Positions 2,074 through 3,720 of a stretch of 8,375 nt of DNA are shown in pieces. The position numbers and the translations under genes were made by a program. Origin of the DNA: Planctomycetota bacterium. Lineage in GTDB: Bacteria > Planctomycetota > Planctomycetia > Pirellulales > Pirellulaceae. The number at the start of each line of letters is the position of its first letter. The first letter of the stretch is position 1. The notes beneath the pieces are model-generated. The model saw nothing but the letters and a program-made list of their open reading frames with translations. It was not told the origin of the DNA and ran no database searches. The stretch is from positions 1 to 8,375 of the forward strand of contig JAJDEH010000360.1 of the NCBI GenBank assembly GCA_029259935.1, given 5' to 3'.

Positions 2074-3720
2074 CTATATGACTGCTGATTCGTATCGGCC
2101 GAAGACGTCGGCCATGGCGTTCATGACTTCGCCGACGGTGGCACGCGCCTTGGCTGCTTCCATGATTGGAAGCATCAAATTCTGATCGCTGGACGCGGCG
2201 CGGCGAAGATCATCCAATGTGCGATGCACATCGTCGCGGCTGCGGTCGCGCTTAATTTTTTGCAGCGAATTCGTCTGTTGCTGTTCCACCGCGGGATCGA
2301 TCGTCAGCAGCTCCATCGGTTTTTCGTCGGGCTGCTGAAATTCATTCACGCCGACGACTATCTTGTGCTTGGCATCAACCGCTTGTTGATACACGAAAGC
2401 CGCTTCCGCGATTTCACGGCGAAAGAAGCCGTTTTCGATGCCGGCCAGCATGCCGCCCAGTTGTTCGATTTGCCCAAAATACTTTTCCGCCTCACCGCGC
2501 ATGTCGCGTGTCAGGCTTTCAACAAAGTAGCTACCTCCGAGCGGATCTACCGTGTTGGTAACTCCGGTTTCGTGGGCCAGGACCTTCTGCGTGAGCAAGG
2601 CCAGGGTAACGGCGTGTTCCGATGGTAACGCAAGTGTCTCGTCCATGCTGTTGGTGTGCAGCGATTGGCAACCGCCCAACACTGCCGCCAGCGCTTGATA
2701 CGCCACTCGCACCAGATTCAGCTCGGGCACTTTATCTTGAAGCGAACATCCGGCGGTCTGCGCGTGAAAACGCATTTTCCAGGATGCTTCGTTCTTGGCT
2801 CCATACTGGTTCCGCATATGGTCCGACCAAATTGCGCGGGCGGCGCGGTACTTACCCACTTCTTCAAACAAGTCGTTATGGGCGTTGAAAAAAAAGCTGA
2901 GCCGGTGGGCGAAGTCGTCGATCCGCATATCTCGTTCTAAACAGCAATCGACATAGTGCAGTCCATCGGCCAACGTAAATGCCAACTCTTGCGCGGCCGT
3001 CGATCCGGCCTCGCGAATGTGATAGCCGCTAATTGAAACTGGATACCATTGCGGTACATGCAGGGCACAAAACTGCATCACGTCGACGACCAGGCGCACG
3101 TGCGGCCGCGGTGGAAAAACGAATTCGTTCTGTGCGTGGAACTCCTTGAGAATGTCGTTCTGAATCGTTCCGCGCAGCGACTTGGCGTCGAGACCACGAT
3201 TCTCGGCGTTCGCCAAGTAGAAGGCCATGATCACGATCGCCGGCGCGTTGATGGTCATGGAGACGGAAAGTTGGCCAATGTCAATGCCGTCATAGAGCTG
3301 ACGAATATCGTCGATCGTGTCGACCGCGACGCCCAGTCGGCCAACTTCGCCCAACGACCGCGGGTCGTCACTGTCGAGCCCCATTAGCGTCGGCAAGTCG
3401 AAGGCCGTACTCAGCCCCGTCTGCCCTTTTTCCACGAGGAACTTGAAGCGTTCATTGGTATCCTTCGCCGTGCCGAAACCGGCGAACTGCCGCATGGTCC
3501 ACGGTCGACTGCGGTACATGCCGGCGTGGATGCCGCGTGTGAATGGGTATTGGCCGGGAAGGCCCAGTTCGTGATCCGCATCGGCGTCCGCTAGACACTC
3601 GGGTGTATAAAGCGGATCCACCAATCGACCGCTCACGGTCGTCGGCGGTTGGGCAACAACGGGAGCTTCCTCAAATTGCTGCCGCCATTTTTCAAACGCG
3701 GCGGATCGAGTAGTACTCAC
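2074..3720 (-). CDS. B12-dependent acyl-CoA mutase, large catalytic subunit (methylmalonyl-CoA mutase family, isobutyryl-CoA mutase IcmA-like)
   Basis: Catalyses a cobalamin radical carbon-skeleton rearrangement of an acyl-CoA in the cytoplasm. The 548 residues cover only the TIM-barrel substrate domain; the B12 domain is a separate gene. Family landmarks: PWTMRQFAGFGTA (73-85), GQTGLSTAFDLPT (99-111), TIQNDILKEF (185-194), SGYHIREAG (231-239), and HTQ-type and SLHTNS segments further on. The substrate-choosing positions are Phe79 and Gln197, as in isobutyryl-CoA mutase (Phe80/Gln198) and unlike methylmalonyl-CoA mutase (Tyr89/Arg207). Catalytic His234 and Gln187 are kept (His244 and Gln197 in the methylmalonyl enzyme). 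The size is close to IcmA. The start is a GTG whose last two bases lie in the preceding gene's stop (GTGA overlap); no strong ribosome site is seen, which fits coupling. Annotation pipelines would probably call it methylmalonyl-CoA mutase. Substrate is inferred, not shown. Confidence 0.92.
   Translation of the reverse strand: MSTTRSAAFEKWRQQFEEAPVVAQPPTTVSGRLVDPLYTPECLADADADHELGLPGQYPFTRGIHAGMYRSRPWTMRQFAGFGTAKDTNERFKFLVEKGQTGLSTAFDLPTLMGLDSDDPRSLGEVGRLGVAVDTIDDIRQLYDGIDIGQLSVSMTINAPAIVIMAFYLANAENRGLDAKSLRGTIQNDILKEFHAQNEFVFPPRPHVRLVVDVMQFCALHVPQWYPVSISGYHIREAGSTAAQELAFTLADGLHYVDCCLERDMRIDDFAHRLSFFFNAHNDLFEEVGKYRAARAIWSDHMRNQYGAKNEASWKMRFHAQTAGCSLQDKVPELNLVRVAYQALAAVLGGCQSLHTNSMDETLALPSEHAVTLALLTQKVLAHETGVTNTVDPLGGSYFVESLTRDMRGEAEKYFGQIEQLGGMLAGIENGFFRREIAEAAFVYQQAVDAKHKIVVGVNEFQQPDEKPMELLTIDPAVEQQQTNSLQKIKRDRSRDDVHRTLDDLRRAASSDQNLMLPIMEAAKARATVGEVMNAMADVFGRYESAVI

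Follow-up and report, generated by a model that had tools for sequence, protein, structure and literature searches.

The window analysed here, a stretch of 8,375 nucleotides of contig JAJDEH010000360.1 from a Planctomycetota bacterium of the family Pirellulaceae, carries on its minus strand, in this order, an IcmA-like large (substrate-binding) subunit of a mutase (3720-2074), a B12-binding subunit (2066-1536), and a MeaB-like G-protein (1543-830). The large subunit (2074..3720) opens with a GTG codon and comprises 548 amino acids. In a profile search of the window proteins it matched PF01642 with an E-value of 4e-206, and it also scores above the cut-off of TIGR00641, a model that spans the whole subfamily. 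Its closest solved structure is HcmA (4r3u; E 4.6e-147), and its closest relatives are planctomycete proteins. Every name shown among 120 listed relatives is methylmalonyl-CoA mutase, the automatic label against which the first-pass annotation had cautioned. A match in the window to NF045497, the IcmF model, lies far under its cut-off, and the locus comprises three open reading frames rather than the single polypeptide of B12 domain, G-protein, and mutase that defines IcmF. Downstream of the G-protein, positions 1-417 cover the beginning of a gene for an ArrB/TtrB/DmsB-type 4Fe-4S protein, which gives a weak match to a Tat signal. The comparisons below draw on 80 related GTDB loci, mostly from planctomycetes, and on the genomes of 20 of these loci, chosen by the analyst, which are genomes of relatives and not the window's own; the latter may contain a further mutase.

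The B12-binding subunit and the G-protein

The small, IcmB-like subunit (1536..2066, minus strand) scores 163 bits against TIGR00640 (cut-off 57). A K-x-G-x-D-G-H-x-x-G motif is present in it and in 41/41 relatives with a B12 subunit in the fetched locus; a separate small subunit with D-x-H-x-x-G is expected of isobutyryl-CoA mutase (ICM) and is not discriminating. Many relatives align to this protein only from about residue 40, and their alignments suggest that its true start may be the TTG at 1946. The split into large and small subunits had been read in the first-pass annotation as a sign of IcmA/IcmB. The window is indeed split, but this layout does not discriminate between the enzymes because a Tyr/Arg mutase of Ilyobacter, in an operon with epimerase and carboxylase genes, has it too.

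The gene for the MeaB-like G-protein chaperone (830..1543, minus strand) starts with an ATG (1543) inside the B12-subunit gene, whose last 8 bases it shares (ATGCTTGA). Its product matches PF03308 with 188 bits and TIGR00750 with 193.5 bits, the latter short of the cut-off of 240.75; the G-proteins of all 20 genomes are likewise under the MeaB cut-off. It contains a switch III-like stretch, GDELQWEK, that fits the strict switch III pattern. The same pattern is seen in 28 of 40 relatives, the 12 misses consisting of three proteins that end before the site and nine without the strict pattern. The window G-protein is separate yet short, missing the C-terminal part (at least 60 residues) of its closest relatives. 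Among the matches listed, no significant match to a remnant of this tail was found beyond the window's stop (830), past which the L030 protein aligns weakly, to 779.

The B12 subunit and the G-protein lie at most 250 bases apart in 20/20 genomes, with the mutase on the same contig in 14. In 17 of the 40 loci having both (L033-L036, L039-L041, L044, L047, L049-L052, L066, L068, L071, and L072), the B12 domain and the G-protein are fused in one frame downstream of a separate mutase. Where the ends are complete, 14 of 15 fused G-proteins stop no more than 18 residues away from where the window's G-protein ends, and 18 of 22 separate ones extend 60-91 residues further. The fused or separate state changes five times on a quick tree made for this comparison, at least two of these changes being forced by well-supported branches; this phylogeny suggests repeated gains or losses of the fusion.

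Active-site residues and phylogenetic placement

The first-pass annotation had located a Phe79/Gln197 pair in the mutase. Both codons (Phe79, 3484..3486; Gln197, 3130..3132; minus strand) are confirmed by the sequence and its translation, and simple arithmetic on the sequence yields the spacings that had been given, 118 residues from Phe79 to Gln197 and 37 from Gln197 to His234 (3019..3021, minus strand). This histidine is the counterpart of the active-site His of methylmalonyl-CoA mutase, presumably His244 in the numbering of that enzyme; we take the published numbering to be Tyr89/Arg207/His244 in methylmalonyl-CoA mutase, Phe80/Gln198 in ICM, and Ile90/Asp117/Gln208 in 2-hydroxyisobutyryl-CoA mutase (HCM). 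The Tyr and Arg ascribed to methylmalonyl-CoA mutase at these positions are seen in the alignment, where residues 79/197/234 are Tyr/Arg/His in both Propionibacterium MutB (1req) and human MUT (2xij) and Ile/Gln/His in HcmA (4r3u). Ala106 (3403..3405, minus strand) is replaced by Asp in HCM-type enzymes, which have Ile or Val at position 79, and Leu112 (3385..3387, minus strand) marks a third position that splits the Gln-type (Leu/Ile) from the Arg-type (Gln/His). Positions 79, 112, and 197 show zero overlap between 56 Gln-type and 38 Arg-type rows, a comparison that omitted L267.

Phe79, Ala106, and Gln197 are found in the query and in 80/80 related GTDB loci, so the Phe/Gln pair is not due to chance, in a set that itself leans towards Gln because KEFHAQNE was among the six search words used to find the loci. 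In a sample collected with Pfam only, the best 130 genes listed comprise 99 of the Tyr/Arg type and 31 of the Gln type, the latter made up of 30 with Phe/Gln and one with Gln whose sequence lacks position 79; this residue count excludes R. maiorica.

Among reference enzymes, residues 79/106/197 are Tyr/Ala/Arg in the human and Propionibacterium methylmalonyl-CoA mutases, in the ScpA/MutB types of Agrobacterium, Streptomyces, and Phocaeicola, in three further Streptomyces plasmid mutases, and in the Ilyobacter split mutase and an Acetoanaerobium mutase. The Tyr/Arg pair is not exclusive to methylmalonyl-CoA mutase, because a MeaA-type (ethylmalonyl-CoA mutase) protein is also Tyr/Ala/Arg. HcmA and two proteins from HCM plasmids have Ile/Asp/Gln, and the Shinella and Sinorhizobium proteins Val/Asp/Gln. 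The query shares Phe/Ala/Gln with the mutase domain of Priestia IcmF, with Deinococcus and haloarchaeal proteins, and with three actinobacterial IcmA-type references (P0184, P0218, and P0129) of 48-50% identity to it, two of which have isobutyryl-CoA mutase in their database name and none of which is known as an assayed enzyme. Thus, the query lacks the Tyr79/Arg197 of methylmalonyl-CoA mutase as well as the Ile/Val79 and Asp106 of HCM, and has the Phe79 and Gln197, with Ala rather than Asp at 106, of ICM. The pair that had been put forward as an ICM signature is therefore present, but neither Phe nor Gln defines ICM by itself, because HCM has the Gln as well; it is Phe, Ala, and Gln combined that fit a predicted ICM.

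Several mutases depart from these classes. In L178 (genome G022), a Phe/Gln mutase, Gln replaces the His234 equivalent (SGYQIREK), and the enzyme may be impaired or altered. Two Sphingobium plasmid mutases, L136 and L137, have Leu/Leu/Asn and Val/Glu/Val, the second also with Gln for His; each adjoins its own B12 subunit and MeaB, and their substrates are possibly of novel kinds. A Leu/Ala/Arg mutase (L140) on pFiD188 of Rhodococcus fascians adjoins non-ribosomal peptide synthetase genes. L258 and L265-L272, of the Arg-type, are Tyr/Arg mutases that form a divergent group; they carry LNVAFDLPTQ and VCGYHIRES-like stretches and may represent a subfamily resembling ethylmalonyl-CoA mutase.

Two trees were built, both without columns 79, 106, and 197. 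The quick tree of 104 rows included 20 of the 80 loci, 28 of the 99 Arg-type genes by random draw together with L081, and 28 Gln-type genes, and omitted the partial L201, L244, L251, and L260 as well as L101, L102, and the Sphingobium TomTYG71 mutase; dropping 39 long branches and near-copies left 65 rows for the careful tree. In the quick tree the query lies within a 53-row Phe/Gln set that includes four IcmA-type proteins (support 95). The careful tree splits the Gln-type enzymes, including HCM, from all Tyr/Arg rows at 100/100 and places IcmA and the query inside this Gln-type clade (100/100). The group nearest to the query differs, being IcmA in the quick tree versus the HCM/haloarchaeal group in the careful one, and three Phe/Gln rows (two haloarchaea and L074) group with HCM in both. 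Placement among the Tyr/Arg mutases, the outcome that had been named as telling against an ICM, did not occur, the 100/100 separation having been obtained with the diagnostic columns removed. The trees firmly exclude the query from the Tyr/Arg group, and an HCM is disfavoured by its Phe and Ala.

Genome content and gene neighbours of the relatives

PF01642 has a single match in 19 of the 20 genomes carrying the Phe/Gln type. The twentieth, that of Rhodopirellula maiorica (G019), has a Tyr/Arg mutase in addition to the Phe/Gln type, with a second match beside the Tyr/Arg mutase. It is also the only one of the 20 in which the epimerase model TIGR03081 exceeds its cut-off, and the match shares a contig with the Tyr/Arg mutase. 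Weaker matches to this model (E<=0.001, below the cut-off) occur in 17 genomes and none in two; a diverged epimerase is thus possible in Phe/Gln genomes. A search of the 80 loci with two epimerase proteins (E<=1e-4) gave no match and recovered the R. maiorica epimerase as a control.

A wider sample of 148 genomes covered the phylum of a Singulisphaera (G016), presumably Planctomycetota, with a completeness filter of 90 requested and values not reported. PF01642 matches were found in 101 of these genomes; the 130 genes above are the best of a longer listing, with fused and MutA-type matches mostly outside them, as are the matches of G023 and G111. An epimerase match at E<=1e-15 is seen in 90 of 92 genomes with a Tyr/Arg gene versus one of seven with only a Phe/Gln gene, and in 25/25 genomes with both kinds of mutase; in G028, a Phe/Gln-only genome, the epimerase is barely above the cut-off. 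Within 8 kb of the mutase gene, one of the 100 listed epimerase matches is found for 62 of 99 Arg-type versus none of 31 Gln-type genes.

The usual route for valine runs through methylmalonate-semialdehyde dehydrogenase (TIGR01722), which is above the cut-off in six of the 20 genomes, and the mutase is thus not always the sole route for valine. Mutases are patchy in an order-level survey (25 of 45 genomes), and a distant-mode search of E. coli with the HCM gene gave no match.

Homologues of enoyl-CoA hydratase, acyl-CoA dehydrogenase, 3-hydroxybutyryl-CoA dehydrogenase, acetyl-CoA acetyltransferase, and acyl-CoA synthetase recur as neighbours in the 80 loci; of the five representatives, only the thiolase is above a curated cut-off among the matches listed, that of the subfamily model TIGR01930. 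At least one homologue of the hydratase, the two dehydrogenases, or the thiolase lies within 3 kb of the mutase in 28/80 loci, in 26 of them on the mutase strand. When the synthetase is included, these families account for 45 of 267 nearby same-strand open reading frames versus 20 of 588 others in the same loci, an enrichment that is partly built in because the families were picked after their recurrence was noticed. Fisher values for this enrichment and for epimerase proximity ignore relatedness. With families picked post hoc and loci that are related, the beta-oxidation neighbours are support, not proof. In L066, L068, and L071, homologues of acyl-CoA dehydrogenase, 3-hydroxybutyryl-CoA dehydrogenase, and hydratase lie upstream of the mutase and the B12/G-protein fusion downstream of it; among the ten window proteins scanned, no beta-oxidation gene was found.

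The predicted reaction and its known counterparts

These observations make it likely that the gene product is the large subunit of a B12-dependent acyl-CoA mutase made of two parts; because its Phe/Ala/Gln are as in isobutyryl-CoA mutase, the predicted reaction is the interconversion of isobutyryl-CoA and n-butyryl-CoA, not that of methylmalonyl-CoA and succinyl-CoA. The central proposal of the first-pass annotation, an enzyme of the ICM type and not a methylmalonyl-CoA mutase, is supported by the tree and by the genome content and neighbours of the relatives. If the system works as known members of the family do, adenosylcobalamin would be placed on the B12 subunit by the G-protein; the radical formed by the cofactor would then take a hydrogen from the acyl-CoA, and migration of the CoA-carbonyl group would follow. 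With Gln197 and Phe79, the active site would offer a second carboxylate no positive charge, and methylmalonyl-CoA is thus expected to be a poor ligand. The neighbours in the relatives suggest the likely role, namely that isobutyryl-CoA from valine would be passed, in the presumed direction, to the beta-oxidation of butyryl-CoA.

The Phe/Gln pair takes away the grip on a carboxylate and does not thereby fix the acyl chain, so a mutase with the same type of active site might act mainly on isovaleryl-/pivalyl-CoA or 2-methylbutyryl-CoA. IcmF also acts on isovaleryl-CoA. Genes suggestive of a broader branched-chain catabolism lie near the mutase in some loci: a carboxylase-beta-like gene whose match to a methylmalonyl-CoA decarboxylase alpha model falls short of the cut-off (6/80), and a gene that we take to be AtuA-like (4/80). 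However, Phe79 and Ala106 are the same residues as in IcmA, and the recurrent neighbours resemble genes of four-carbon beta-oxidation, which renders another branched substrate unlikely. A methylmalonyl-CoA mutase able to hold its substrate with residues other than Tyr/Arg would account for the database names of the 120 listed relatives and for the score against the subfamily-wide TIGR00641, but the Gln in place of Arg, the tree, and the finding that no epimerase exceeds the cut-off in any of the 19 genomes with a single PF01642 match make it highly improbable. Equally far-fetched is an HCM, for which speak HcmA as the closest solved structure, the shared Gln, and the HCM/haloarchaeal group beside the window's clade in the careful tree, and against which stand the Phe and Ala in place of Ile/Val and Asp and the genes for an acyl-CoA ligase, an adenosyltransferase, and a carbonic-anhydrase-like protein by the mutase on two HCM plasmids, none of which is among the ten window proteins scanned. 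We thus reject the methylmalonyl-CoA mutase and HCM identities on the grounds of residues, phylogeny, and genome content.

If the enzyme is the isobutyryl-CoA mutase that we predict, pathway reconstructions would be in error for such planctomycetes, assigning them the propionate-to-succinyl-CoA route via methylmalonyl-CoA and overlooking one from valine to butyryl-CoA; the residue pair together with the absence of an epimerase would provide a simple annotation rule. Neither this type of enzyme nor its mislabelling is new, and the window gene is a further member. The reading of IcmF as a methylmalonyl-CoA mutase is noted in PMC7764203, which cites Cracan 2010, and the counts in PMC2667541 pool methylmalonyl-CoA mutase, ICM, and MeaA. 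Among the open-licence papers found on planctomycetes with isobutyryl-CoA mutase or methylmalonyl-CoA mutase, of which PMC2667541 is one, no title or abstract opening takes up the confusion of the two enzymes.

It is conceivable, if somewhat doubtful, that planctomycetes have a third ICM architecture, between split ICM and IcmF, in which a free mutase is accompanied by a fusion of B12 domain and G-protein without the C-terminal part of the chaperone; this would have arisen more than once, and the enzyme would often be the only acyl-CoA mutase, carrying valine carbon through butyryl-CoA to acetyl-CoA under a wrong methylmalonyl-CoA mutase annotation.

Of the known systems, actinobacterial IcmA/IcmB of the Streptomyces type resembles the window in its Phe/Ala/Gln, its separate large subunit, and the 48-50% identity given above, although IcmA is set on a long branch from the planctomycete clade and its closeness differs between the two trees. 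As described in PMC5017805, the ICM cluster of Syntrophothermus lipocalidus (Slip_0757-0760) comprises separate proteins for the N- and the C-terminal domain together with one like MeaB and is used to convert isobutyrate to butyrate ahead of beta-oxidation; it is likened here by description and not by sequence, and, unlike the window, it has an adenosyltransferase gene (PMC5017805). HcmA matches the window in sequence family, Gln197, split subunits, and a nearby MeaB but has Ile/Asp where the window has Phe/Ala. The Ilyobacter split mutase (L129; 50% identity) has the same order of large subunit, B12 subunit, and MeaB, but is of the Tyr/Arg type and is followed by the epimerase and carboxylase genes. 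IcmF is described in PMC10481361 as the notable exception among stand-alone chaperones, its G domains being monomeric when inactive whereas MeaB is always dimeric. Like the window, IcmF combines a B12 domain, a G-protein, and a mutase, with Phe/Ala/Gln in the Priestia protein; it differs in fusing all three where the window has three genes, and some relatives of the window fuse the B12 domain and the G-protein only.
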